DNA of 64,000 nt from Thalassobacillus devorans MSP14 (GTDB lineage: Bacteria; Bacillota; Bacilli; Bacillales; Halobacillaceae): assembly GCF_000496835.1 (NCBI RefSeq), contig NZ_KI543238.1, positions 201,984 to 265,983 of the forward strand. The letters are read 5' to 3'. The position numbers were made by a program, and so were the translations under genes. Shown here piece by piece: positions 12,304 to 41,620 of the stretch. Position 1 is the stretch's first letter. Every line of letters starts with the position of its first letter. The notes below the pieces were generated by a model that worked only from the letters and a program-made list of their open reading frames with translations, was not told the DNA's origin and made no database searches.

Positions 12304-12534
12304 ATGTATTTGACGATACAGGAAACTGCTGAATATCTGGATGTCCCAGTATCTTATATTCACAAAATGGTTTTAAAAAATAAAATAAAAACGATTGATG
12401 ATGGTTATCAGGTCTTGATTAACAAAGACCAGTTTTCAAATTATTTTGACCAAGTGGAGAAGTATCGTGCTACGATACAGGAATACTTGAGTGAGCCAAT
12501 TCCTCCTGATCCGGACATTAAAGATGAAGACTGA
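12304..12534 (+). CDS. Excisionase-like helix-turn-helix protein
   Basis: A 76-residue protein whose first 50 residues match the HTH_17/excisionase fold: LTIQETAEYLDVPVSYIHKMV followed by a wing with IKTIDDGYQVLINKDQ. Such proteins bind DNA as small MerR-like winged helices, in phage excisionases or as stand-alone regulators. No integrase or phage gene is nearby, so a stand-alone role is more likely. The tail is proline/aspartate-rich. Start ATG; GCAGGTGG lies seven bases upstream. Its own terminator follows directly. Confidence 0.75.
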   Translation: MYLTIQETAEYLDVPVSYIHKMVLKNKIKTIDDGYQVLINKDQFSNYFDQVEKYRATIQEYLSEPIPPDPDIKDED

Positions 12535-29253: not shown

Positions 29254-30471
29254 TTACGAGTGCTTTTTAAGTGGAGTGGCTTGCACGCCCTCTTTCTTTG
29301 GCAAAACCGGAATCATTACGCCGATTAAAGCGATAGCTGCGCAAGCCAGGAACATCGGTGTAAAGCCTGATAATGCCATTCCGCTTACCGATAGAAAAAT
29401 GATAATATCAAACCCGGAATCCAAAATCGATAAGAGCGATATGGTAGTCGCCCTTACGTTAGAAGGGATGATATCGTTGGATAGCTGGGAGTAAACGGGA
29501 TACCTTATGGCGTTGACTACCTTCAGCACGAGTAACACACCTAATACCACCCACAAGTAAGCATGGAAAACAGCTACTGCGGCCAGGGCAGCAACAGCAA
29601 GCATACCAGTTATGAATAATAGTGTTACCCGGCTGATTTTTCCGGTCATCCAGCCAATCGTGTGCGAAGCGACAAACCCGCTGAACGCACTAGCTGCATA
29701 TACGATACCGATTAAGTACACCGCAAGACCGGCGTCCACCAATAATTTCTGATCGAATTTTTCAAAGATGGCTGCAGCTGGAATGAAAACAAGGGAAACA
29801 TTCATGAACATCCAGAGCACTTGAGGGTTTTTCTTAATGGCAAGAAACCCCTCTTTTAACTGGGAATGCACATGTTCGGTGTAATTACCTTGCCGGGGTG
29901 GATTTTTAATAAACAACAGTAACACAAACTCAACCGACATAAAAACAACACCAAGCAGAATCAAACGTTGGAATTGCTCGTTCGTCAAATCCTTAGCTAA
30001 AATTGCCCCAATGATCACTACGATAATGTATACTAAAAAAGTAGCGGAACCAATCTGACCCATAGCTTTGTCCATGCGGTTCTGTTCATTGGATAATGTC
30101 AATGATTCATAGATTAACGCTTCATCGGCACCACTGAAAAAAGTGGCTGCCAAACCAGTAAGTGCACTGCTGACAAAGAACACCCAGGGTTCATAAGCAG
30201 CAAGCAATAAAGCGTGACTACCGATTCCGAGCAATGATCCGAATAAAAAAGATGTTTTTGCACCAAAGCGATCGGCAAATATGCCTGTTGGAATCTCTCC
30301 TATTAAAACTCCTATACTGAAGAATGTCATCACAAAAAGTATTTGTGTTTCATCCAATCCACGTGAAAAGTAAAAAAGAGTCAATACCGGCGCAATAAAC
30401 CGGATGCTGCCGAAAATTTTTGATAAGAATAAAAATTTAATGTTATGAGCTGCTAACGTATTTTTCTTCAT
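29254..30471 (-). CDS. MFS transporter, probable exporter with attenuated leader
   Basis: A 405-residue major facilitator protein with about twelve helices. IGVLIGEIPTGIFADRFGAKTSF carries the loop 2-3 motif (GxxADRxGxK), and a long central loop KNPPRQGNYTEHVHSQLKEG joins the halves. It resembles Mef/TetA-type drug exporters of Gram-positive bacteria; the substrate is not known. The ATG is five bases after GGAGG. That ribosome binding site lies in a hairpin, and a short ORF with a strong ribosome binding site lies 69 bases upstream, pointing to translational control by an inducer, as in known antibiotic-resistance leaders. Confidence 0.87.
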   Translation of the reverse strand: MKKNTLAAHNIKFLFLSKIFGSIRFIAPVLTLFYFSRGLDETQILFVMTFFSIGVLIGEIPTGIFADRFGAKTSFLFGSLLGIGSHALLLAAYEPWVFFVSSALTGLAATFFSGADEALIYESLTLSNEQNRMDKAMGQIGSATFLVYIIVVIIGAILAKDLTNEQFQRLILLGVVFMSVEFVLLLFIKNPPRQGNYTEHVHSQLKEGFLAIKKNPQVLWMFMNVSLVFIPAAAIFEKFDQKLLVDAGLAVYLIGIVYAASAFSGFVASHTIGWMTGKISRVTLLFITGMLAVAALAAVAVFHAYLWVVLGVLLVLKVVNAIRYPVYSQLSNDIIPSNVRATTISLLSILDSGFDIIIFLSVSGMALSGFTPMFLACAAIALIGVMIPVLPKKEGVQATPLKKHS

Positions 30472-30476
30472 TTTTT

Positions 30477-30515
30477 CCTCCTGCTATAGTTGGTTATTTC
30501 TTTGGTATGCAGGAG
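30477..30515 (-). promoter_or_regulatory. Hairpin sequestering the MFS ribosome binding site
   Basis: On the minus strand CTCCTGC (30515-30509) is complementary to GCAGGAG (30484-30478), which contains the ribosome binding site of the MFS gene. The CTCCTG arm can alternatively pair with CAGGAG inside the upstream leader ORF (30559-30554). Confidence 0.55.
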
Positions 30516-30539
30516 TTAAGAGGCGAGCTCAAATATGCT

Positions 30540-30596
30540 CTAACGTACTCTCCCTCCTGGCAGTAGATTAGGAATTCTGATAAATGTTTTTAGCAT
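30540..30596 (-). CDS. Possible 18-residue leader peptide of the MFS gene
   Basis: ATG at 30596 is preceded by AGGAGG seven bases upstream. It encodes MLKTFIRIPNLLPGGRVR and stops 69 bases before the MFS start. A strong ribosome binding site on such a short frame, followed by alternative pairings, is the layout of translational attenuators. Too short for family evidence. Confidence 0.5.
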   Translation of the reverse strand: MLKTFIRIPNLLPGGRVR

Positions 30597-30745
30597 GTGA
30601 AATTACCTCCTATGTGTTGGTAACTTTTATTTTACGATACACGGCCAAAAATTAGTATAAGATTATCTATTAATATACTTTTTACTGATTGGGCTCGTTA
30701 TATATGAACAATAAGTGAAAACTCTGAATCTAGTTAGCGAGCAGG

Positions 30746-30801
30746 TTGACAATGAGAATCATTCTCTATATAATTATTTTTGCAAATGAAATTCATTATC
30801 A
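30746..30801 (+). promoter_or_regulatory. Sigma-A promoter with two Fur-box-like elements
   Basis: TTGACA (30746-30751) and TATAAT (30769-30774) are consensus boxes with a 17-base spacer. The spacer contains GAGAATCATTCTC, a perfect 6-1-6 palindrome matching the Fur/7-1-7 pattern. A second element TGAAATTCATTATCA (30787-30801) has 13 of 15 matches to TGATAATCATTATCA. Iron-loaded Fur would block this promoter. The next gene starts at 30831. Confidence 0.85.
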
Positions 30802-30830
30802 ATTAATACATAAGCGCAGGAGGAAACGAA

Positions 30831-32039
30831 ATGTTTAAAAAGAGTGTGCTGTTATATCTGTTGTTAGCTATTGGACTCGTTCTATCTGCATGTGGACAAA
30901 GTGATCAGGGTTCTAAAGAGGATCAAAGTAAAGAAGAAACGACTCAAGGAGACAGTGAGGAGAAATCCTCTGAAGAAAATGGCAGTGAGAGTGAAGAAGC
31001 CAATGATAAAGAAGAAGACGCTGATTTTGTAGCTGCCTACAAGAAAGGTAAAGAAGAGCTTGCAAAAGCAGGCGAAGGCGAAAAAGTAGATTACCAAAAA
31101 GTGATCGATCTTTATAATAACCAATTACAGCCATTGGTGGCAAAACGTGACGGCAAGATCGATCAGCAGATTTCTACAGCTTTAGAAGCTGGAAAAAATG
31201 GTGAAATGGATGGTCAAGTCGTCAAGCAGATCTTTGACAAATTGACTCAGAAAGTTTTCTATTTGACAATCAAGCATGAGTTCCACGAAATCGACGAAAA
31301 CTGGGGTAAGAAAGAGGTAGTCAAAGAAGAGATTGCTGAAGCGAAAGAATTTTATGAAGTATTGAAGGAAACAGTTGAAAAGCGTGATGCTGCTTATGAA
31401 ACCAATATGGTGGATCAGATTGACGCTGGATTCAATGAAATTGAAAAAGCAGTTGAAAATGATGATAATCTTGGGTTCCAACTAGGTAAGCAGGTCGTTG
31501 ACAAGACATTGATGAAGACATTCTACCTTGCAGCAGGAGCTGTGCCTAACGGTTACGCAACAAAAGCTGCTAAAGAAGCAGAAGAAGATCCGGATAAAGC
31601 AAAGGTAGAACAAGCGGAAGGCTGGGCATTCTATCAATCTATCTCTGAATACATCACGAAGTATGCGGAAGAAGATGCGAAAATTATCGAAAAGAACTTC
31701 AACCTTGAAACAGATGTGAAAGAGCTTGACCCTGAAGCAGTAAACCATGCATTTGTCCGTGGCTTATCTAAAGTAGCTCTTCACGAATATGAAGAAAGTG
31801 AAGAATATTGGGGCGAAGATAAATCAGTCATTACGGCTCTTGAGGGTGCACTGTTCATCGATATGATCGCCAGTGACATTAAACGTATGCAAGGGGAAGA
31901 GACATACACTACGTTGAATGAGCAGGCACAAACTTATTTAGACGCCGTAAAATCAGACGAGAAAGAAAAAGCGATGGAAGTACTGGAAAAGATCGAAGGA
32001 ACCCTTCACTCCATCATTGAACGAAGTAAAGCGGCCTGA
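30831..32039 (+). CDS. Fur-regulated lipoprotein, probable iron-uptake component
   Basis: A 402-residue lipoprotein with lipobox VLSACG (anchored Cys near residue 21). A very acidic Ser/Glu/Lys linker runs to about residue 60, followed by a helical domain rich in Glu, His and Tyr. Similar segments recur: KVFYLTIKHEFHEIDENWGKK and KVALHEYEESEEYWGEDK, suggesting internal duplication. Its promoter carries Fur boxes, and an FTR1 permease and a related extracytoplasmic protein lie 4 kb downstream. I infer a surface iron-binding or iron-delivery role, like EfeM or the soluble domain of fused FTR1 proteins. I do not recognise a named family with certainty. Start ATG with AGGAGG. Confidence 0.75.
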   Translation: MFKKSVLLYLLLAIGLVLSACGQSDQGSKEDQSKEETTQGDSEEKSSEENGSESEEANDKEEDADFVAAYKKGKEELAKAGEGEKVDYQKVIDLYNNQLQPLVAKRDGKIDQQISTALEAGKNGEMDGQVVKQIFDKLTQKVFYLTIKHEFHEIDENWGKKEVVKEEIAEAKEFYEVLKETVEKRDAAYETNMVDQIDAGFNEIEKAVENDDNLGFQLGKQVVDKTLMKTFYLAAGAVPNGYATKAAKEAEEDPDKAKVEQAEGWAFYQSISEYITKYAEEDAKIIEKNFNLETDVKELDPEAVNHAFVRGLSKVALHEYEESEEYWGEDKSVITALEGALFIDMIASDIKRMQGEETYTTLNEQAQTYLDAVKSDEKEKAMEVLEKIEGTLHSIIERSKAA

Positions 32040-32061
32040 AATAGGTTATGATAGATGTAAG

Positions 32062-32092
32062 AAACCTTGTTTCCTCAGAACAAGGTTTTTTA
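32062..32092 (+). terminator. Terminator after the Fur-regulated lipoprotein gene
   Basis: AAACCTTGTT and AACAAGGTTT pair perfectly around a seven-base loop, followed by TTTACTTT. The next gene begins only 30 bases later with no visible promoter. Confidence 0.9.
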
Positions 32093-32122
32093 CTTTGAAA
32101 ACCGATGATTGAGGTGGCAAGG

Positions 32123-33067
32123 TTGCGTATATTAGTTACGGGAGGAGCAGGTTTTATTGGATCACACCTCTGCTCCAGACTCCTTAGAGAAAATCATGAA
32201 GTTACGATTGTTGATAATTTTGATCCTTATTACGACCCTGGGAGAAAGAAGAAGCAGTTGGAACTAGTGAAACGTGCTGGTAATTTCCAATTCATACAAG
32301 CTGATCTGATGGATAAACAGGCGTGCCGGAAAGTATTTCAAACAAAGCGCTTCGATGTGGTCATCCATCTGGCTGCACTGCCGGGGGTAGCATACTCTGT
32401 GAAGGAACCTCTCGCATATGTTCACTATGACATAGAAATGACCATCAATGTACTGAAGTGTGCAGGAGAAACTGGGGTTTCCCATGTAATATTTTCTTCC
32501 TCATCGTCTGTATATGGAAATAAAGCAGATAAGCCGCTAGCAGAGGATATGGTGGATGGAAAAGTAGTTTCTCCTTATGCAGCGTCTAAATATGGAGCTG
32601 AATCTTTCTGTCATTCTTTCCAGCACCTATATGGATTTCAGTTGTCCATCCTGCGTTTTTTCACTGTCTATGGACCATGGGCGCGTCCCGACATGGCGAT
32701 TCCCAAGTTTGCAGAGCGGTTATCCAAAGGATTGCCTATAGAGATATATGGCAGTGGGACATCACGTGATTACACCTATATTGATGATATTGTGGATGGA
32801 GTCCATGCTGTACTAAATACAAACCACGAGAATGAAACTTTCAATATTGGTTATGGCGAACCCATTTCAATGGAGCGGTTACTTGATAATTTCCGAAAGT
32901 TTTATCCAGACATGGAAGTTATTCAAAAACCTTGGCGAACAGGGGATGTAGTTTCCACATGGGCGGATATTGCAAAAGCAGAAACCCGACTTGGATACAA
33001 GTCCAAAGTATCTATTAAGGATGGAATAGAAAAAGTGGTCCGATGGATAGGTTCATGCAGCGATTGA
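32123..33067 (+). CDS. NAD-dependent sugar-nucleotide epimerase, probably UDP-glucuronate 4-epimerase
   Basis: A 314-residue extended SDR protein. It has the NAD-binding GGAGFIGSH, substrate-contact SSSSVYGN, catalytic YAASK near residue 147, and RFFTVYGPWARPDMA, which is typical of uronate epimerases (GAE/CapI type). Together with UDP-glucose dehydrogenase at 39565 it could make UDP-galacturonate from UDP-glucose. I chose TTG 32123 because GAGGTGG lies five bases upstream; ATG 32105 lacks a ribosome binding site. Its end overlaps the next gene by 25 bases. Transcription probably comes from upstream read-through. Confidence 0.88.
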   Translation: MRILVTGGAGFIGSHLCSRLLRENHEVTIVDNFDPYYDPGRKKKQLELVKRAGNFQFIQADLMDKQACRKVFQTKRFDVVIHLAALPGVAYSVKEPLAYVHYDIEMTINVLKCAGETGVSHVIFSSSSSVYGNKADKPLAEDMVDGKVVSPYAASKYGAESFCHSFQHLYGFQLSILRFFTVYGPWARPDMAIPKFAERLSKGLPIEIYGSGTSRDYTYIDDIVDGVHAVLNTNHENETFNIGYGEPISMERLLDNFRKFYPDMEVIQKPWRTGDVVSTWADIAKAETRLGYKSKVSIKDGIEKVVRWIGSCSD

Positions 33068-33981
33068 AGCAGTTTGTCATGTGGGGAGGCAGGCTGGTTG
33101 TCGGCATATGCTTTATTTGGTTGACCTACCTGGTATTCGACCTTTCCTATATATTAGCTGAAGTAAAGCAGCTATTCAGAAACTTCTGGTTAGTGGTGTC
33201 AATGACATGTTTTTATTTAGCTGCTTTTATTATTCGGGCAAAAGCCTGGCAGCTGTATGTGGGAAAGCAAATAAGTTTGAAAGTGTTCATAGATGGAGTA
33301 CTATACAGTCTGTTCATAAACCATCTCCTTCCCATTAAGGCCGGAGATATTGTGCGAACCGGCCACCTGGCTCAGTCGGGGAAAGTAGCATGGAAAACTG
33401 CTTTGCAATCAGTCGTAGTCATGAGGCTGCTTGATTTATTGATTTTAGGACTGATCGCTATCATCGGAATCCTTTATTTAGGGTTATCGTTATCCTACCT
33501 GTTTCTTACAATGGTGTTGATTGGCGGGGGTCTTCTTTTAGGTTTATTATTACTTAAAGAAAAATGGCGAAATATGCTCCTGGTTCACATCAGGCAGATC
33601 ATATCTATTTTATTCTCGGCCAAAGGCATCATAATCTTCACGCTTATTACAGTAAGCTGGTGTCTGGAAGCTGTGGTCATATTCGCAGTGACTACCGAGT
33701 TCAGCCTATCATTATCCTATCTGCAATCTCTTTGGGTAAACAGTTTTACGATTGCCGGTCAGGTTTTTCATTTTTCACCTGGAGGAATCGGTACTTACGA
33801 GAGCTTTATGAGTTTGGCGTTGGCGGCCTATCAGGTACCGATCAAGGAAGCTTATACCATAGCGGTCATTACCCACGGGTTTAAATTCATCTTTTCCTTT
33901 GCAGCAGGTATTTATCTTATTTTAAGTGTTCCTATTTCATGGACAACGATCAAGCATTGGGTGAAAAGAAAGGAAGATTAA
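33043..33981 (+). CDS. Flippase-like membrane protein (LPG synthase TM / AglD family)
   Basis: A 312-residue protein with about eight helices and the UPF0104/lysylphosphatidylglycerol synthase TM-region marks NHLLPIKAGDIVRTGHLAQ near residue 90 and HFSPGGIGTYESFMSLAL near residue 245. Family members are linked to lipid-linked sugar or phospholipid translocation. Located among glycan genes, it may flip a lipid-linked sugar. The start (ATG 33043 or 33055) lies inside the epimerase gene, showing tight coupling; the next gene begins one base after the stop. Confidence 0.85.
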   Translation: MDRFMQRLKQFVMWGGRLVVGICFIWLTYLVFDLSYILAEVKQLFRNFWLVVSMTCFYLAAFIIRAKAWQLYVGKQISLKVFIDGVLYSLFINHLLPIKAGDIVRTGHLAQSGKVAWKTALQSVVVMRLLDLLILGLIAIIGILYLGLSLSYLFLTMVLIGGGLLLGLLLLKEKWRNMLLVHIRQIISILFSAKGIIIFTLITVSWCLEAVVIFAVTTEFSLSLSYLQSLWVNSFTIAGQVFHFSPGGIGTYESFMSLALAAYQVPIKEAYTIAVITHGFKFIFSFAAGIYLILSVPISWTTIKHWVKRKED

Positions 33982-33982
33982 T

Positions 33983-35479
33983 ATGAAGCAGGCATCCACA
34001 TTCGAGGTGATCGCTGCACGAGGCTGGAATTTGTTGAATGAAGGGAAGCCGTTTACGCCAATCTTTGTCGTCGGCACGATGCTCCTCTTTTACATAGGGG
34101 AATGGGGAAACCCTTCTTTCTGGCAAACGACCGGTTTCAGTTTCTTGTTAACGGTGCCATTGTTGGCACTCTATTATCACTTTGATTTCCCTTTATTATT
34201 ACGTAACTATTTATGGCTTCCTTTTGTCGCCTATTTGATTCTATGGGGGGATGTGAATCTCTCTCTATTAACGTTTGCACTTGGCCTGTATTTCTTTTTC
34301 ACGGTCTTTTTTTGGGGCACATTTTACTATCATTTAAGAATCGGCACCTCATGGCTGAATTTCACGCGTTTCTGGAAGCTTGTATTGAAAAATAGTGACT
34401 CAACAAGCGGAAATGCCCAGGAACAGCTGCCTAAGTTTCTGTTGATTCTTTCCTTATGGAATTTGTTTTATGAAAAGCTCGGCAGCGGCATGGCGGTGGA
34501 CTATCTATCATACGCATTTTTTCTGCTAGGAGTATGGGCGTTAAGCTGGATTCTTCACCGCTACTTGTTTGATTGGAAGCCGGAGTTGAAGCGGAATTTT
34601 ACAGAACCTGTTACAGACAATGGTGAGAAAAGTGACAAAGTAATCATGATTGTCATCGATGGAATGAGAAAGGAACGTTTCCAGGAAGCAAATACTCCTT
34701 TTTTGGACAAACTTCGTAAAAATGGTACGGAATATGCGCAGATGGAAACCGTTTACCCCGCAAGGACTGTCGTCTGCTTTTCATCCATGATGACCGGTAC
34801 CTATCCACAGGAGCATGGTATCAAATCGAATATGGTATGGAAGCTCGGCATCAAGGTGGAATCAATTTTTGACTCGTTACGCAAAATAGGGAAGAAAGGC
34901 CGTCTTCTGGGTGTGGCTCATCTGATTGATGCCATGGGAGACGACGTAGATGCCTATACGGCTGTCATGGACAATGATTCTGTCGATAAGGGAATCCTGG
35001 AAAATGCAAAACGCATCATGGAAAAAGAAGACTTGGACTTTTTTAATATACAATTGATCAGCACAGATCAAACAGGACATAGCCGGGGTGTTCTTTATGA
35101 TGAATATATCCAAAAAATCGAGGAGGCTGACCACCTGATCGAGGAGTTCGTTTCCTGGATGGACACGAAGGGATATATGAAGAATACCACATTACTTATT
35201 TGTGCAGATCATGGCCAGGCAGACGGTATCGGAGGACATGGTCACCTCGATGAAGGAGAGCGCTATGTACCCTTCTTCATGTATGGACCGCAGATTGAAC
35301 AAGGTAAAGTCATTGACGATAAACATAGTTTGATTTCTGTAGCCCCAACCGTAGCTCAATTATTAGGAGCTCCTTATCCAAGTCATAGCAGAGGCGCTGT
35401 CCTTACTGATGCACTCAAAAATGCAAGAAAGGAACAAAAACATGAATCAGAAAGTCATCGTATTTCTACCAGCTCATAA
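33983..35479 (+). CDS. Membrane-anchored phosphodiesterase (nucleotide pyrophosphatase/alkaline phosphatase fold)
   Basis: A 498-residue fusion-like protein. About six hydrophobic helices lie in residues 25-195, followed by an alkaline-phosphatase-superfamily domain (about 218-480). Metal and catalytic residues are IVIDG (Asp 226), nucleophile Thr 262 in ARTVVCFSSMMTG, STDQTGHSRG and CADHGQADGIGGHGH. The domain resembles NPP/ENPP phosphodiesterases. Whether the catalytic domain is cytoplasmic or outside depends on helix number. Its place between a flippase-like gene and a glycosyltransferase suggests removal or transfer of a phospho-sugar or lipid phosphate. The end overlaps the next gene by 38 bases. 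Confidence 0.82.
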   Translation: MKQASTFEVIAARGWNLLNEGKPFTPIFVVGTMLLFYIGEWGNPSFWQTTGFSFLLTVPLLALYYHFDFPLLLRNYLWLPFVAYLILWGDVNLSLLTFALGLYFFFTVFFWGTFYYHLRIGTSWLNFTRFWKLVLKNSDSTSGNAQEQLPKFLLILSLWNLFYEKLGSGMAVDYLSYAFFLLGVWALSWILHRYLFDWKPELKRNFTEPVTDNGEKSDKVIMIVIDGMRKERFQEANTPFLDKLRKNGTEYAQMETVYPARTVVCFSSMMTGTYPQEHGIKSNMVWKLGIKVESIFDSLRKIGKKGRLLGVAHLIDAMGDDVDAYTAVMDNDSVDKGILENAKRIMEKEDLDFFNIQLISTDQTGHSRGVLYDEYIQKIEEADHLIEEFVSWMDTKGYMKNTTLLICADHGQADGIGGHGHLDEGERYVPFFMYGPQIEQGKVIDDKHSLISVAPTVAQLLGAPYPSHSRGAVLTDALKNARKEQKHESESHRISTSS

Positions 35480-36200
35480 TGAAGAAGAATCTATTGTACA
35501 GGTGATTCGTAAGGTACCTCGCAACTTTCACCCCCAAGTTGATGTCGAAATTCTAGTCATCAATGACGGATCGACGGACAGGACGGTGGAAGTGGCGAAG
35601 GAAGCAGGAGCCGACCATATTTATACACACACCGTTAATAAAGGGTTAGGCGCTTCTGTTCGGGAAGGTCTCAAGCAATCATATCAGCTGGGAGCCGACA
35701 TCGCTGTCATGATCGATGCCGATAACGAGTATCCTGCCTGGGAAATCCCTGAGTTGATCCAGCCTATTTTAGATGGAGAGTACGACTACACTATGGGTTC
35801 CAGGTTCCTCGGCACAATAGATGGAATGAGAATCCATCGACGTCTGGGCAATTATTTCTTTACTTTTCTTCAGTCCGTTCTGCTTCGAAAGTGGATCTAT
35901 GATGGTCAGTCAGGCATGCGCGCGTTTTCAAGGCAGGCCATTCAACATGCGGAAATCATCCATGATTATAATTATGCGCAAGTAGTGACATTGAACCTGG
36001 TTAGAAAAGGATTCCGGGTCAAAGAAGTCCCGATTACGTATAAAGTACGATCTAAAGGGCAGTCGTATATCAAATTCCGTGCCTATATGACATCGGTATT
36101 TCCTGCGATTGTCAAAGAGATGTCCCGTTGTCACAAAAAAGTCGATATTGTACGTAAACCGTTAGAAACTAAGCGTTCGGTCGATAAAAAGACTGGTTGA
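35442..36200 (+). CDS. Family 2 glycosyltransferase, DPM1-like
   Basis: A 252-residue GT-A protein: FLPAHNEEESI at the start, VINDGSTDRTVEVA, the metal-binding DAD in MIDADNEYP, and YTMGSRFLG. The acceptor region QSGMRAFSRQAI and a C-terminal GQSYIKFRAYM match dolichyl/undecaprenyl-phosphate sugar transferases without C-terminal helices. It probably charges undecaprenyl phosphate with a sugar from a nucleotide donor. The start chosen is ATG 35442, nine bases after AAAGGA, inside the phosphodiesterase gene. No terminator follows before the Fur-box promoter at 36216. Confidence 0.88.
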   Translation: MNQKVIVFLPAHNEEESIVQVIRKVPRNFHPQVDVEILVINDGSTDRTVEVAKEAGADHIYTHTVNKGLGASVREGLKQSYQLGADIAVMIDADNEYPAWEIPELIQPILDGEYDYTMGSRFLGTIDGMRIHRRLGNYFFTFLQSVLLRKWIYDGQSGMRAFSRQAIQHAEIIHDYNYAQVVTLNLVRKGFRVKEVPITYKVRSKGQSYIKFRAYMTSVFPAIVKEMSRCHKKVDIVRKPLETKRSVDKKTG

Positions 36201-36215
36201 ATGCGCTTTTTTTCA

Positions 36216-36244
36216 TTGACATTGATATTGATAATCTTTATCAT
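36216..36244 (+). promoter_or_regulatory. Second Fur-box promoter
   Basis: TTGACA (36216-36221) and TATCAT (36239-36244) are spaced by 17 bases. TGATAATCTTTATCA (36229-36243), with 14 of 15 matches to the 7-1-7 Fur consensus, overlaps the spacer and -10 box. It lies 25 bases before the gene at 36269. Confidence 0.85.
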
Positions 36245-36268
36245 TTAATTTGACAGGAGATGCTATCG

Positions 36269-37033
36269 ATGAAGAAATTCAATTTATTCTTAGCAATCAT
36301 GGTATTGCTGACATTTTCCATACAAACAAATGCAGCGGCATACTCTTATGGTGATCCCAGTGAAGAAAAGATCGCACAGGTCTATGAAAAGATGGTAGCG
36401 AAATTGAACCAGTCCCCGCCAGACTTCCAGGAAGCCGAAGCATTGTTTAATACGGTAAAAGAAGAAGTCGATATGCACATGGGAAAAGGGGCATCGGAGC
36501 TGGTATTGAACTCCCTTGAAGATGAAGATAAAGAAGCTACGATCAACAATATGCAAAAGCTGTTAGGCTTGAATATAGCCAGACGCTTGAATGCGATAGA
36601 GAACAATTTTGAAGAGTATGATACGAGTAAAAAGCTTCTGGCCAAGGGGTTTGCTACATATAAAGCTTTATCCCCGGCTATCGAAGAGCAGGATGCCAAG
36701 CTGGATTCTCAAATAAGGGAAGAGTTCGACTTAGCTCTGGAAGCTCTCGGAAATCCCGGTTTGTTCGGGGTAGGGGAGAAAGAATCTGATAAGGAACAGT
36801 TCCTTAAGAGCAAATCTTCCATATTAGAAGCTTTGAAAGAACCGTTGAATATTGAGGAATTTAATGCCGGCCATTTTACGGAGAGTGCCACAGCAGAAGA
36901 AAACACCAGCCAATCCACCAATGATAAGTACACCGATTTCACCGAGTGGAAAAATTGGCTGCCAATCTTGGTCCTGATCGGCATCATAATTGCCGTTGTA
37001 CTATACTTTTTGAAAAGAAGGAAAAGATCTTAA
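36269..37033 (+). CDS. Extracytoplasmic iron-uptake protein with C-terminal membrane anchor
   Basis: A 254-residue protein with an N-terminal signal peptide (FLAIMVLLTFSIQTNA), a mainly helical extracytoplasmic region, a Ser/Thr-rich spacer and a C-terminal helix (WLPILVLIGIIIAVVLYFLKRRKRS). It looks like the detached soluble domain that is fused to the FTR1 permease in B. subtilis EfeU/YwbL. The FTR1 gene follows 21 bases later and the promoter has a Fur box, so it likely delivers iron to the permease. AGGAG is nine bases before ATG 36269; ATG 36260 is too close. Confidence 0.8.
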   Translation: MKKFNLFLAIMVLLTFSIQTNAAAYSYGDPSEEKIAQVYEKMVAKLNQSPPDFQEAEALFNTVKEEVDMHMGKGASELVLNSLEDEDKEATINNMQKLLGLNIARRLNAIENNFEEYDTSKKLLAKGFATYKALSPAIEEQDAKLDSQIREEFDLALEALGNPGLFGVGEKESDKEQFLKSKSSILEALKEPLNIEEFNAGHFTESATAEENTSQSTNDKYTDFTEWKNWLPILVLIGIIIAVVLYFLKRRKRS

Positions 37034-37054
37034 GTATAAAGAGGTGTGGAAATC

Positions 37055-37999
37055 ATGGAAATCCAGGCGCTGTTAATCACCTTTCGTGAAGTGTTAGAAG
37101 CACTCTTGATCATCGGTATAATCACCACCTATCTCAAGAGGACAGAAAATAAACAATACTCGAAATTCGTCTGGCTCGGTGCCGGTCTTGCTGTTGTCGC
37201 CAGTATTGGTGTGGCGATGTTGTTTCAAGTCGTATTTACGAGTTTTGCAGCAATGGGAAGTGAAATGTATCTGAAAGTCACTATCATGCTCGTATCATCC
37301 TTCCTATTGACTCAGATGGTATTTTGGATGGCGAAACACAGCAAAAACCTGAAAGGTGAAATGGAAGGGAAGATGGGGCAGCTCGTCACAACGGGAAATG
37401 TGATCGGGATGGTCATCCACTCCTTTCTGGTCGTCCTTCGTGAAGGTGTGGAAACGGTGTTTTTCTTCGCTGCTATTACAGGCGGAGATATCGGGAAAGG
37501 TTTGCAAGGCTGGGGTGCAATCACCGGGGTAGTCATTGCAGCCACCGTAAGTTACTTGTTCTTCAAGGGAACCATGCGCATTCCTTTGAAAACTTTCTTC
37601 AAAGTAACAGGAGCATTCATTGTCCTGATTGCTGCAGGACTGCTCGTCCAAGGGATTTCCATGATGCAGGACTTACAGATAATCGGAAGTGTCATGCCGC
37701 ATGTATATAATATTACCTGGCTCTTACCAGAGCATCCGATTGATTACGCCCATTACTTGCGTGATACTGGTGTGGCACCGGTATTCTCGGGCGATGTAGG
37801 TATATTCCTAAAAGCATTATTCGGCTATTCATCCATGCCGTCACTTGAAGAAATAATTGCTTATATCGGTTACTTTGTAGTCATTTACCTGCTTGTCCAA
37901 GCAAAAAATGAGACACCGGAAAAGCAAAAAGTGACAAAGCTTAAAAAACAACCGAAAACTGCTTATACAAATAACACTGCAGGACATAACGTTAAATAA
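37055..37999 (+). CDS. FTR1 family iron permease
   Basis: A 314-residue membrane protein with about seven helices and the two iron-binding REXXE motifs of FTR1/EfeU: REVLE at residues 11-15 and REGVE at 129-133. It is shorter than the fused B. subtilis protein, because the soluble domain is encoded separately upstream. It imports iron through the membrane. No DyP-type peroxidase (EfeB) gene lies nearby; the lipoprotein at 30831 may be another partner. Translated from ATG 37055 with AGAGGTG upstream. A terminator follows. Confidence 0.92.
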   Translation: MEIQALLITFREVLEALLIIGIITTYLKRTENKQYSKFVWLGAGLAVVASIGVAMLFQVVFTSFAAMGSEMYLKVTIMLVSSFLLTQMVFWMAKHSKNLKGEMEGKMGQLVTTGNVIGMVIHSFLVVLREGVETVFFFAAITGGDIGKGLQGWGAITGVVIAATVSYLFFKGTMRIPLKTFFKVTGAFIVLIAAGLLVQGISMMQDLQIIGSVMPHVYNITWLLPEHPIDYAHYLRDTGVAPVFSGDVGIFLKALFGYSSMPSLEEIIAYIGYFVVIYLLVQAKNETPEKQKVTKLKKQPKTAYTNNTAGHNVK

Positions 38000-38010
38000 T
38001 TTGATTTACT

Positions 38011-38045
38011 ACAAGGCGTAATTTTATTACGCCTTGTTTTGTGTT
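38011..38045 (+). terminator. Terminator after the FTR1 gene
   Basis: ACAAGGCGTAAT and its exact reverse complement with a three-base loop, followed by TTTGTGTTT. The next glycan gene starts 24 bases later without a visible promoter. Confidence 0.9.
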
Positions 38046-38068
38046 TAATAAAAGAAGGAGAAGAACCC

Positions 38069-39550
38069 ATGAAAAAGGCTGGATATCCTATTAATAAAAC
38101 GAAATTATTGGCATGGGCTGTATTCCTGGCATTTTTAGGACTCACCTTCTATTTTCGTGTCACTTTTGCAAGTCCATTTGCCAGATCATGGGATCAGGTT
38201 GATTTTGCTTTAGGGGTAACCGATTTTGATCTGTTTACGATGCAGCCGCATTTTCCTGGTTATCCCTACTTTGTGTTAGGCGGGATGCTAATCAACCGCT
38301 TTTTAGATCATCCTGTGCGGTCTCTTGCCATTTTTAATACCGTGCTGACCGCTTCCTCTGTCGTTCCGATATACCTTTTATTCAGAAGAAGGTATGCTAC
38401 AGCAATAGCCTTACTGTTTGTTGCTGTTATTCATTCCATGAGTTATATGTGGGTAATGAGTACAGAACCAATGAGTGAAGCGGCTGCAGTGGCTGTGCTA
38501 TGGTGGTATGTTTGGAGTATATACCAGGCTTACAGGAAGTCCTCATTTTATTGGATGATGCTGCCTTTGTTTCTATTCAGCATACTTATGGGGATACGCT
38601 TGTCTTATCTTCCATTCGGATTGGGAATCCTGTTGTTATGGTGGAATAAGAGAAACCAATTTAATACAAGGAAATCCTATACCTGGTTTATTTTAAGGCA
38701 TACCCTTTTAGCGATAGCTTTTCAGATGGTTTGGGCAGCCGGATTGGTTCTCTCTACTGGAGGCATCGCTACATTCATGGAGCTCGCCATGGGATTCATC
38801 AATGGTCATTTTACCGAATGGGGCGGAGCCGTTACGGCGGATTCTGTGCCGATATGGAAGCGGATATATATCCTTTTGTTCCATAATCTATTATGGAAGG
38901 CATGGTTCGTGGAGTCATGGCCAATCGCTGGATTGTATACAGGCCTGCTCCTAATAGTAGTTTTTTTATCTATTAGAAATAAAGGTGCTATGAAAAAAAT
39001 TGATCGCTGGCTGTTGGTTTTATTGTGCTGCTATTTTGTATGGGCGTTATTTGCGCAGAATGTAGATAAACCGAGGCATATCCTGCCACTGACTGGTTTT
39101 TCGGTATACTTATTGCTTGTGAACATTGCGGGTAAGGTGAAGCTTTTGACGGTCAGCCTGTGCTTTGTTTTGATCACTACCCAGTCCTGGCACGGGCTGG
39201 CTTTAGCTAGTGAAAAAGCAACAGAACTGCCGGCTGTTTATCAGCTTTCCAATTATTTGTCTCAACTTAACGAACCTTTAATTATTTATACATGGGAAGA
39301 ATCAAGGGTCATGGAATATCTTGACGTTGAATTTTCTCATAAGAAATTATACACTTACGAATATTTTGAATCGAGATTATCTTATAGTAAAGAAAAACGG
39401 ATATTTTTGACGGATCACGTAGTGAAAGGCTTTGAAATGCAGGGACACCCGGTACAGGATAACATACGAAAAGTTGCTGTATTTCAATCGGATGATCTGT
39501 TTAATCCGGTTTATCACGATATTCAACTGTATGAATGGATCGGTGAATGA
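38069..39550 (+). CDS. GT-C-like membrane glycosyltransferase
   Basis: A 493-residue protein with about ten to eleven helices and a C-terminal soluble part (about 395-493). An early loop after helix 1 holds SWDQVDFAL, an acidic motif at the place of the catalytic aspartate of GT-C enzymes (GT39/PMT-like). HFPGYPYFVLGG and NVDKPRHILPLTG are other conserved-looking loops. Such enzymes transfer sugar from a polyprenyl-phosphate donor on the outer membrane face, which fits the DPM1-like enzyme at 35442. The family is inferred from topology and motif. AAGGAG is eight bases before ATG 38069. Confidence 0.72.
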   Translation: MKKAGYPINKTKLLAWAVFLAFLGLTFYFRVTFASPFARSWDQVDFALGVTDFDLFTMQPHFPGYPYFVLGGMLINRFLDHPVRSLAIFNTVLTASSVVPIYLLFRRRYATAIALLFVAVIHSMSYMWVMSTEPMSEAAAVAVLWWYVWSIYQAYRKSSFYWMMLPLFLFSILMGIRLSYLPFGLGILLLWWNKRNQFNTRKSYTWFILRHTLLAIAFQMVWAAGLVLSTGGIATFMELAMGFINGHFTEWGGAVTADSVPIWKRIYILLFHNLLWKAWFVESWPIAGLYTGLLLIVVFLSIRNKGAMKKIDRWLLVLLCCYFVWALFAQNVDKPRHILPLTGFSVYLLLVNIAGKVKLLTVSLCFVLITTQSWHGLALASEKATELPAVYQLSNYLSQLNEPLIIYTWEESRVMEYLDVEFSHKKLYTYEYFESRLSYSKEKRIFLTDHVVKGFEMQGHPVQDNIRKVAVFQSDDLFNPVYHDIQLYEWIGE

Positions 39551-39564
39551 AGGAGTGGCATCTA

Positions 39565-40881
39565 GTGAAAATAAGCATAATAGGAACTGGTTATGTCGGG
39601 TTGGTTACAGGAGCTTGTCTGGCAGAGATTGGCCACTTTGTGACATGCGTAGATATTGATGCACAAAAGGTTGAAATGATGCAGTCAGGACGCTCGCCCA
39701 TCTATGAAGCCGGTTTGGAGAAATTAATGCAGAAAAATATAAAAATGGGGAAGTTATCTTTCACCACAGATTCCCGCGCAGGCTTAAACCATGCAGATGT
39801 CATCTATATTGCCGTAGGAACTCCACAAAACCCTGATGGTACAACTGATCTGGCGGCTGTAGAGATGGCAGCAGAACTTGTAGCACAGCATGTAGTCAAA
39901 GATGTCATTGTCGTGACAAAAAGTACAGTGCCGGTCGGAACGAATGCCTGGGTGAAAGAAAGGATCAGGCAGCATGTGCGGGGCGGTATATCGGTGGAAG
40001 TAGTACATAACCCGGAATTTTTACGGGAAGGATCAGCTGTATATGATACATTCCATGGGGACCGGATCGTAATTGGAGCAGACAACCATGAATCAGCGAT
40101 GATTATTGAAAAAATAAATGAACCTTTTGATATTCCTGTTTTTATAACAGACATCAATAATGCGGAGATGATCAAGTATGCTTCCAATGCTTTTTTAGCC
40201 ACCAAAATCAGTTTCATCAATGAAATTGCTAATATATGTGAAAAAATTGGAGCCGACGTGGAAGAGGTGGCCTATGGAATGGGGCTGGATAAACGGATCG
40301 GCCCTCAATTTTTACAAGCGGGTATCGGTTATGGTGGTTCCTGCTTCCCGAAAGATACAAGCGCTCTTGTCCATTTGGCCGGTGGAGTAGAACATGATTT
40401 TGAACTATTGAAGTCTGTCATTCGCGTGAACAATCATCAGCAGGCTGCATTGGTTGAGAAGGCAAAACAGCGCTTTGGCTCTCTTGCTGGAAAACGGATT
40501 GCGGTCCTGGGTCTTGCCTACAAACCTAATACAGATGACATGCGAGAGGCAGCATCATTGACAGTCATAGAACGGCTGGTTGAAGAGTCCGCAACTGTGA
40601 TTGCATATGACCCACAGGCCATTGAAAAGGCAAAACCCTTACTGCCGCGGAGGGTAGTGTTTGCAGGTTCATTGCGAGAAGCACTGACCGGGGCTGATGC
40701 TGGATTTATACTGACCGAATGGGAAGAAATCAAATATTTTCCGTTAAGCGATATGAAGAACCTGATGAATAATCCGATCATATTTGACGGGAGAAATTGC
40801 TTGCAGTTAGAAGAATTGCGCAAGCATAAAATCGAATATCATTCTATCGGGCGTCCAAGCATAGGAAGAGCGTTCCTGTAA
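39565..40881 (+). CDS. ugd: UDP-glucose 6-dehydrogenase
   Basis: A 438-residue enzyme oxidising UDP-glucose to UDP-glucuronate with two NAD. The N-terminal Rossmann domain begins with IIGTGYVGLVTGACLAE. The catalytic cysteine is in GYGGSCFPKD near residue 258, and the C-terminal UDP-binding domain has VLGLAYKPNTDDMREA. The family includes B. subtilis TuaD and YtcA. GTG 39565 is used, nine bases after AAGGAG. It is coupled to the GT-C-like gene and supplies the substrate for the uronate epimerase at 32123. A terminator follows. Confidence 0.95.
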   Translation: MKISIIGTGYVGLVTGACLAEIGHFVTCVDIDAQKVEMMQSGRSPIYEAGLEKLMQKNIKMGKLSFTTDSRAGLNHADVIYIAVGTPQNPDGTTDLAAVEMAAELVAQHVVKDVIVVTKSTVPVGTNAWVKERIRQHVRGGISVEVVHNPEFLREGSAVYDTFHGDRIVIGADNHESAMIIEKINEPFDIPVFITDINNAEMIKYASNAFLATKISFINEIANICEKIGADVEEVAYGMGLDKRIGPQFLQAGIGYGGSCFPKDTSALVHLAGGVEHDFELLKSVIRVNNHQQAALVEKAKQRFGSLAGKRIAVLGLAYKPNTDDMREAASLTVIERLVEESATVIAYDPQAIEKAKPLLPRRVVFAGSLREALTGADAGFILTEWEEIKYFPLSDMKNLMNNPIIFDGRNCLQLEELRKHKIEYHSIGRPSIGRAFL

Positions 40882-40900
40882 TAAACAGGACGCTTTTTTT
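40868..40900 (+). terminator. Terminator after UDP-glucose dehydrogenase
   Basis: AGCG(T)TCCTGT and ACAGGACGCT pair with one bulged base, followed by seven T. The stem begins inside the last codons. Confidence 0.85.
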
Positions 40901-40950
40901 AAATTCATTAATGAGGAACATGGCTTATAATGGAGATGGAGGTGGAGAAA

Positions 40951-41502
40951 GTGGAAAGAATTATGGTGGTAGGGGTCTCGGCAGGGGTAGGGAAGTCTAC
41001 TTTTGCCCGAAAAATGGGAGAAGCATTGCAAATAGATGTTTACCATTTAGATGCACTATATTGGAAACCGGGCTGGATGGAAGCTTCCCTGAATGAGTTT
41101 GAGAAGGCGCAACAGGAAATTGTAAAAAAAGAAAAGTGGATTATAGAAGGCAATTACAGCAAGACTTATGACATCCGTATAACAAGCGCAGACACGATTA
41201 TATATTTAGAACTTCCGCGCTATATTTGTCTTTATCGTGCAATTAAACGATGGCTGATGAACATTGGAAAAACGCGTCCTGACATGGGGGCGGGTTGTAA
41301 GGAAAAATTAGATTGGAATTTCCTTAAGTATATTTACACCACTTATAAATCACGGAGGAGTAATATGAAAGAAAGACTGCGTACTCTTCAAGCACAGCAA
41401 CATACCAAAAATATCATTACTTTGAAAAGCAGAGATGAAATGGAGTCGTATCTGGAAAGTTTATTAAAGAAAAATGACAGGCCATTTTCTATCATTTCCT
41501 AA
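40951..41502 (+). CDS. FlaR-like P-loop kinase
   Basis: A 183-residue P-loop protein: IMVVGVSAGVGKSTFA with Walker A, VYHLDALYWKPGW typical of the FlaR/'DNA topology modulation' group, and EKWIIEGNYSKTYDIRI. A basic region follows with RRSNMKERL. These proteins look like adenylate-kinase relatives; the topology role is a historical name and the true substrate is unknown. GTG 40951 is taken as start, five bases after GGAGGTGG, giving Met-Glu-Arg-Ile as in relatives. The terminator at 41621 follows after a 118-base gap. Confidence 0.82.
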   Translation: MERIMVVGVSAGVGKSTFARKMGEALQIDVYHLDALYWKPGWMEASLNEFEKAQQEIVKKEKWIIEGNYSKTYDIRITSADTIIYLELPRYICLYRAIKRWLMNIGKTRPDMGAGCKEKLDWNFLKYIYTTYKSRRSNMKERLRTLQAQQHTKNIITLKSRDEMESYLESLLKKNDRPFSIIS

Positions 41503-41620
41503 TTATTTTAAAAAACATGAGTAATAGGTTTAGTCAGAAAAGGATGCTACCCATAAAATAACAGCATGATGCCGTATTAAATCGCGCTCCGGCCACACCT
41601 TGTCGGCATAACATTCTCAT

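Follow-up and report, generated by a model that had tools for sequence, protein, structure and literature searches.

An FTR1 iron permease locus interleaved with glycosylation genes behind Fur boxes in Thalassobacillus devorans MSP14 and related genomes

A 64,000-nucleotide stretch of the Thalassobacillus devorans MSP14 genome (the window) carries, between positions 30746 and 40881, genes for iron handling interleaved with genes for glycan synthesis, all on the forward strand. The iron genes encode a lipoprotein (LP), a helical protein here named M75 and an FTR1 permease, and the glycan genes encode a UDP-glucuronate 4-epimerase-like protein (EPI), a flippase-like membrane protein (FLP), a phosphodiesterase (PDE), the glycosyltransferases GT2 and GT-C, and a UDP-glucose 6-dehydrogenase (UGD). 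Comparative genomics gives good support to the proposal that the FTR1 of this module is coupled to a dedicated glycosylation set under Fur.

Gene families were assigned with Pfam and NCBIfam profiles and their own cut-offs. EPI (32105..33067; PF01370, 211 bits), FLP (33043..33981; PF03706, 99.8 bits), PDE (33983..35479; PF01663, 104 bits), GT2 (35442..36200; PF00535, 85 bits), FTR1 (37046..37999; PF03239, 129.9 bits, cut-off 25.3) and UGD (39547..40881; TIGR03026, 464 bits) all scored over their cut-offs, which bears out the gene reading of an earlier prediction made on this DNA from the sequence alone (the original prediction). EPI could also start at a TTG codon at 32123, which is preceded by GAGGTGG. 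PDE contains a hydrophobic N-terminal part (judged by eye) and an NPP-type phosphodiesterase domain, GT2 is a putative polyprenyl-phosphate sugar synthase, DPM1-like in sequence, and UGD is TuaD-like. FTR1 is a short member of the FTR1/EfeU permeases, scoring 192.6 bits against the NCBIfam EfeU profile, under its cut-off of 255, and FLP scored 32.6 bits against TIGR00374 ("flippase-like"), under the cut-off of 43.2. LP (30831..32039), with a lipobox at Cys21 recognized by eye and an all-helical model, matched the "FEA1-related lipoprotein" family weakly (29 bits, cut-off 250); M75 (36260..37033), composed of a signal peptide, a helical domain, a flexible stalk and a C-terminal hydrophobic helix, was weakly similar to the imelysin/M75 family (16.8 bits, cut-off 23.5); and GT-C (38069..39550), a putative GT-C-like membrane glycosyltransferase (hydrophobicity judged by eye) with a conserved WDxVD motif, scored 21.6 bits against PMT_2 (cut-off 26.1). 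Since LP, M75 and GT-C remained under their family cut-offs, these three names are leads.

Two promoters precede the iron genes. The first unit starts behind TTGACA-17-TATAAT at 30746-30774 (12/12 consensus match), within a Fur-box promoter region that extends to 30801, and the second behind TTGACA-17-TATCAT at 36216..36244 (11/12); they are the top two of 41 promoter-like matches in 30300-41600 (shuffled sequences gave 28.5, standard deviation 5.4). Fur boxes were scored against TGATAATNATTATCA, which we take to be the consensus. The sole match in the window with 1 mismatch was TGATAATCTTTATCA at 36229-36243, and the first promoter has TGAAATTCATTATCA at 30787-30801 (2 mismatches), downstream of its -10, and TGAGAATCATTCTCT at 30753-30767 (3 mismatches), within its spacer. 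The original prediction had placed Fur palindromes in the spacers of both promoters: that both strong promoters have boxes was upheld, but the box at 36229 overlaps the -10, and the first promoter has its better box 3' of the -10. The whole window contains 19 matches with three or fewer mismatches against 7.3 expected, a number reached by 1 of 100 shuffles; another of them, TGATGATGGTTATCA at 12396-12410 (2 mismatches), lies outside this locus.

Terminator-like hairpins, absent from the account given by the original prediction, separate each iron unit from the glycan genes that follow, at 32061..32089 between LP and EPI and at 38011..38037 between FTR1 and GT-C; the hairpin scan found a further one after UGD, at 40874..40890. 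The distance of about 20 bases from hairpin to ribosome-binding site in the window would be too short for a promoter.

The arrangement was compared across 299 sampled genomes of the order, in which at least 50% identity defined an FTR1 orthologue. FTR1 of this type was found in 78 of the 299 genomes and GT-C in 81. Each of the 78 has both genes, with a shared strand in every case, and no more than 839 bases separate them except in a single genome, where the gap is 4,234. The PDE orthologue was found in precisely the 78 FTR1 genomes, and the other 221 had neither. The three additional GT-C genomes contain fragments only, and lack both this FTR1 and this PDE. All eight genes in the order LP-EPI-FLP-PDE-GT2-M75-FTR1-GTC were present in 61 of the 78 loci, and the core five genes in 74. 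Among 34 named genomes with a near FTR1 relative, several of which recur within the 299-genome sample, 27 showed the full eight-gene order; EPI is doubled in one of the others (L042), LP or EPI is wanting in five, and in Cohnella (L047) the set is reordered, with UGD present and FLP not detected. The closest named FTR1 match was that of Thalassobacillus cyri, with 96% identity. Although 4 of the 78 GT-C matches contained stops or came in two pieces, and many of the PDE matches contained stops, the called open reading frames were long, with at least 466 residues for GT-C in 77/78 loci and for PDE in 74/76. PDE is truly broken into short frames in one locus (L151), where FTR1 and GT-C are open; its genome (G145) is listed with 6% contamination.

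Two FTR1 subfamilies could be distinguished, one in 54 genomes (69-100% identity to the window) and the other in 24 (50-55%). Both occupy loci of one kind, whereas no corresponding gap was seen among the PDE identities. In many of the 78 loci (L079-L156) the module lies between open reading frames of about 258, 257 and 326 residues on one side and about 594 and 415, then 150, 203, 588 and 254, on the other, sizes that may correspond to etfBA and uvrC-lysC-yslB-sdhCAB of B. subtilis; 46 of the 78 loci passed a crude test of these sizes, and the same kind of site was seen in two of the three GT-C-fragment genomes (L157 and L159). The recurrence of same-size flanking frames suggests that much of the gene order was inherited as a block.

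Fur boxes recurred at these loci in front of the iron units. Ahead of M75, 76 of the 78 loci carry a box of at least 12/14 (0.5% in shuffles), as do 53 of 73 loci ahead of LP; with a threshold of 11/14 the LP count rises to 67 of 73 (9.6% in shuffles). Boxes of at least 12/14 preceded EPI in 0/66 loci, GT-C in 1/78 and UGD in 0/4, and none was found before FLP, PDE, GT2 or FTR1 in the loci of the order. PerR was considered in place of Fur and rejected, the Fur consensus being the better one before M75 (mean 13.77 vs 11.82 of 14). The hairpins are also conserved, occurring in 56 of 62 LP-EPI gaps (1.3 expected in shuffles) and in 65 of 77 FTR1-GTC gaps (1.6 expected), compared with 15 of 73 GT2-M75 gaps and 0 of 78 M75-FTR1 gaps. 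For the LP-EPI gap, a first terminator scan found 32 of 62, and the larger count comes from a scan letting the T run pair, which includes the window. These hairpins do not support unhindered co-transcription, and a plain joint transcript of LP and the glycan genes was dropped as an explanation for this reason. With a conserved hairpin behind each Fur-driven iron unit, the glycan genes of the window probably depend on read-through, and the likeliest arrangement suggested by the sequence would be one in which Fur-controlled promoters express the binding proteins and the permease strongly and a small amount of read-through reaches the enzymes.

Beyond the order, GT-C was found in 49 of the 299 genomes of a class sample, 34 of them outside the order, and the neighbourhood was examined in 26 of the latter. 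FTR1 is in the GT-C locus in 21 of these 26; four of the remaining five have FTR1 elsewhere, and in the fifth (G408) the locus ends inside GT-C at a contig edge. The gene order varies (for example, UGD LP M75 GTC FTR1 PDE GT2, or FTR1 M75 GTC LP EPI PDE GT2), and most of the set is retained, EPI and FLP being the genes most often undetected. At least one box of at least 12/14 precedes a unit in 22 of the 26 loci. The joint retention of FTR1, GT-C and PDE even when the set is split, the class-wide linkage and the Fur boxes belong, like the gene set, to what can be read directly in the genomes, and on these neighbourhoods the linkage of FTR1 with the glycan genes is no accident. The original prediction had named conserved linkage as one of its tests, and the gene neighbourhoods of order and class speak strongly in its favour. 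Outside the class, the FTR1 loci of 12 of 33 matching genomes from a phylum sample, together with those of two order genomes with a distant FTR1 (L222-L235), had no adjoining glycan set; one epimerase in L229 (167 bits) and a weak GT2 match in L234 (21 bits) are partial exceptions.

The set is divided over two places in nine genomes, with both parts retained. Separate glycan units that include PDE and GT2, at a distance from FTR1, were found in G125 and G230, in G385, G423 and G598, and in G459 and G488; by taxonomy, these seven units probably represent three events. Six of the seven have a Fur box of 13/14 near the start of the first open reading frame, equalled in 0 or 1 of 300 shuffles, and the seventh (L254) has one of 11/14 roughly 80 bases ahead of the probable start. 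In G352 and G353, FTR1 is on another contig with a box of 12, and the M75-GTC-PDE-GT2 unit has boxes of 13 and 12, respectively. The separated glycan genes therefore appear to join FTR1 in the Fur regulon even when unlinked, and these boxes are, at the level of sequence, the best evidence for coupling. The original prediction placed the glycan genes under Fur-box promoters. Fur control of these genes is supported where units stand alone behind their own box or where runs of genes follow a single box, but hairpins precede them in the window and in the majority of related loci. As to the position of GT-C, it alone of the glycan genes remains with M75 and FTR1 in L127, L128, L208, L218 and L219, and in G459 and G488 (L198 and L202) it has left FTR1 and accompanies the other glycan genes.

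Detailed inspection of the iron branch showed that FTR1 has conserved RExxE sequences, presumably the FTR1 motif, with R14, E15 and E18 and R132, E133 and E136 each conserved at 96% or above across 78 sequences. The LP model has a mean predicted local distance difference test score (pLDDT) of 86.9, and the M75 stalk (residues 208-227, before the last helix) has a pLDDT below 50 and contains Ser/Thr in many homologues. Matches of LP and M75 in VIA-align 2 were to common helical bundles, and a sequence search of solved structures gave best E values of 0.01 for LP (N-terminal part) and 0.15 for M75. A DyP peroxidase (PF04261, E 0.001) was found in only 4 of the 78 module genomes, never at the module locus, and not in the window's own genome. 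In those four genomes it lies within about 3 kb of a second, long FTR1 on the same contig, suggesting that canonical EfeUOB and this module are different, coexisting systems.

As regards the glycan branch, 195 of the 498 positions of PDE, the N-terminal part included, are conserved at 96% or more in 76 sequences, and the residues that we take to be the NPP-type metal ligands and Thr nucleophile are conserved, leaving the metal site complete. PDE residues 126-148 (window 34358-34426), NFTRFWKLVLKNSDSTSGNAQEQ, are near-invariant in the same sequences and far from the catalytic residues in sequence. Assignment of PDE to the carrier-lipid hydrolases of PMC11898649 was rejected, as those, in the part of that report available, resemble an alpha-beta hydrolase and a metallophosphoesterase, the latter with a cytosolic enzymatic domain. 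The best solved relative of GT2 is 5mlz, a dolichol monophosphate mannose synthase. GT-C had no match up to E 1 in a sequence search of solved structures, and its W41, D42, V44 and D45 are conserved in 78 sequences.

The donor sugar is likely a uronate in most module genomes, to judge from EPI and UGD. All 66 EPI sequences have Arg194, and Ser133-135 are conserved; both align with 6zl6, whose group we take to be the B. cereus UDP-glucuronate 4-epimerase, with Thr126-Ser128 as the network residues, so that Arg194 corresponds to Arg185 and the Arg185 and Thr/Ser carboxylate network has its counterpart in EPI. The similarity to this enzyme is moderate (173 bits), and a better PDB match, 5u4q, is annotated as dTDP-glucose 4,6-dehydratase. 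In the available part of the report on the B. cereus enzyme, Arg185 holds the galacturonate carboxylate together with threonine and serine residues (PMC12338863). UGD is found within the module in unrelated lineages, at either side, and the recurrence of UGD with the conserved arginine is what makes the uronate donor likely. EPI was undetected in 12 of the 78 loci: one ends at a contig end (L134), two have the gene elsewhere (L127 and L128, at L252 and L253), one stretch starts at PDE (L152) and eight are without it.

On balance, the locus probably encodes a Fur-controlled FTR1 iron-import system with a dedicated transmembrane glycosylation branch, a reading that we adopt with some reserve. 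The pairing, in many Bacillus-like bacteria, of FTR1 with a gene set for adding a probably acidic sugar on the outside, both with iron-control sites, suggests that iron uptake may depend on a surface sugar. According to the gene families, UGD would produce UDP-glucuronate, EPI would interconvert it with UDP-galacturonate, GT2 would load the sugar onto undecaprenyl phosphate, FLP would aid its passage across the membrane, and GT-C would transfer it to a putative acceptor on the outer face. PDE may cut or transfer a phosphodiester in the pathway, perhaps setting its lipid carrier free or transferring a phospho-group. Transcription in the window would cover the iron genes first and reach the enzymes through read-through of the conserved hairpins. 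More tentatively, the acceptor might be the membrane-anchored iron-handling machinery (the M75 stalk, LP or a lipid near FTR1), where carboxylates brought in by the sugar might bind ferric iron for FTR1, replacing the missing EfeB peroxidase. The original prediction had proposed an acidic glycan that concentrates iron at the surface for FTR1; its observation of the gene set is confirmed, and is stronger than could be known from the window, while its interpretation is partly supported, the iron-concentrating glycan being a good hypothesis. The bolder version, in which FTR1 is inactive or poor without a self-made uronic-acid modification and a Fur-switched surface chelator takes the place of a ferroxidase or peroxidase, is one that we would sooner doubt than adopt.

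Several observations weigh against the preferred reading or limit it. The HXXE motif is not conserved in M75, the one iron protein in which it was looked for: the residue after an invariant His73-Met-Gly is Lys in the window and Glu in only 4 of 25 sequences. The fold match of M75 is weak, and neither LP nor M75 had a Foldseek match at E 0.001 or better. UGD-like genes (E 1e-90 or better) were found in 75 of 78 module genomes vs 56 of 80 sampled others, which speaks for a uronate donor, but at a threshold that also admits related sugar dehydrogenases; UGD-like genes in L254-L256, scoring 38 to 52 bits, were left out of the count. The three module genomes without such a match (G066, G109 and G145) likewise have no EPI in the locus, and the retention of the module in G066 and G109 indicates that uronate is not required everywhere; another sugar may be used there. 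The predicted uronic-acid glycan set is thus well supported as to its donor and is not universal. The hairpins could instead shield the glycan genes against Fur control, a promoter 5' of the hairpin serving those genes, and four of the 26 class loci (L197, L199, L201 and L204, all from family f62) have no Fur box of at least 12. Moreover, the co-occurrence counts, and the Fisher test applied to them, are uncorrected for phylogeny, related genomes sharing descent, and the orthologue cut-offs were chosen after the lists were seen.

Among the other explanations, protein glycosylation has an appreciable, if minor, chance of being correct: GT-C would place a sugar on the M75 stalk or on the Ser/Glu-rich N-terminus of LP, mainly stabilising or placing these proteins rather than binding iron. 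The five genomes that keep GT-C next to M75-FTR1 and have the remaining glycan genes elsewhere point in this direction, as do the low-confidence stalk, with its Ser/Thr in many homologues, and the PMT_2-like similarity of GT-C, but GT-C left FTR1 along with the glycan genes in G459 and G488, the stalk is poorly conserved and of a kind common among linkers, and PDE has no obvious role in this scheme. It is rather unlikely that the set remodels a wall polymer, the sugar being added to teichoic acid or a secondary polymer under iron starvation and altering metal binding by the wall, with FTR1 only a regulon-mate. The GT-A, flippase and GT-C plan is that of lipoteichoic and wall teichoic acid glycosylation systems, as far as the available part of the source describes them (PMC8035078), and UGD is TuaD-like, but a shared regulon alone leaves unexplained the fixed gene order and the joint presence or absence of FTR1 and PDE in 299 of 299 genomes. 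Similarly improbable is a uronic-acid (phospho)glycolipid made by GT-C and PDE and acting as a membrane-held ferric carrier for FTR1, which would agree with the high conservation and complete metal site of PDE and with a gene set in which no polymerase was seen. Hitch-hiking, in which glycan and iron genes are neighbours because they were inherited together at one chromosomal position and have no functional tie, fits the block inheritance of the gene order but is very improbable, given that the set survives reordering and splitting with both parts retained and that the three GT-C-fragment genomes lack this FTR1 and this PDE.

The preferred iron-import system resembles known ones in part. With EfeUOB it shares the FTR1/EfeU permease with both RExxE motifs, the helical partners and the Fur boxes, and it differs in having no EfeB, an M75 partner with a C-terminal hydrophobic helix and without the conserved HXXE, and added glycan genes; HXXE is described as the motif of the EfeO/EfeM M75 domain in the available part of PMC9174327. 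Multi-component transmembrane glycosylation systems of the CsbB-GtcA-YfhO type, as described in the accessible part of PMC8035078, have a GT-A polyprenyl-phosphate sugar synthase, a flippase and a GT-C, for each of which the locus has a candidate; it differs in PDE, in the likely uronate donor and in being tied to Fur and an iron permease. Its one flippase candidate belongs to PF03706 and not to GtrA or Wzx, a statement that covers the locus only. A further parallel is Algp7 of Sphingomonas sp. A1, an EfeO-like M75 protein from an EfeUOB-like operon that binds alginate (PMC9174327), which, going by the available parts of the sources, likewise brings together a uronic-acid polymer and an M75 protein associated with FTR1, although the relation of this binding to iron uptake has been doubted (PMC3143127). 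Algp7 binds external alginate, whereas here the cell itself would make the uronate, and the similarity of M75 to Algp7 is weak (Foldseek E 3.6).

Among the best matches in the open-access literature, covered by titles and abstract openings, with most subscription papers and all preprints outside this scope, no description of an FTR1 locus with a glycosylation set was found. If the bolder version above were correct, this would, to our knowledge, be the earliest known case of a glycosylation machinery devoted to metal uptake. The working of FTR1 systems is commonly ascribed to an oxidase or peroxidase partner, and the module represents a widespread FTR1 variant that is mostly without a peroxidase partner and keeps its glycosylation set through reordering and splitting. 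If the dependence on a surface sugar is true, it would be a new way of handing iron to FTR1, would provide a function for a conserved phosphodiesterase, GT2 and GT-C set that is named only generally in the libraries, and would make the role of surface uronic acids in metal uptake testable.

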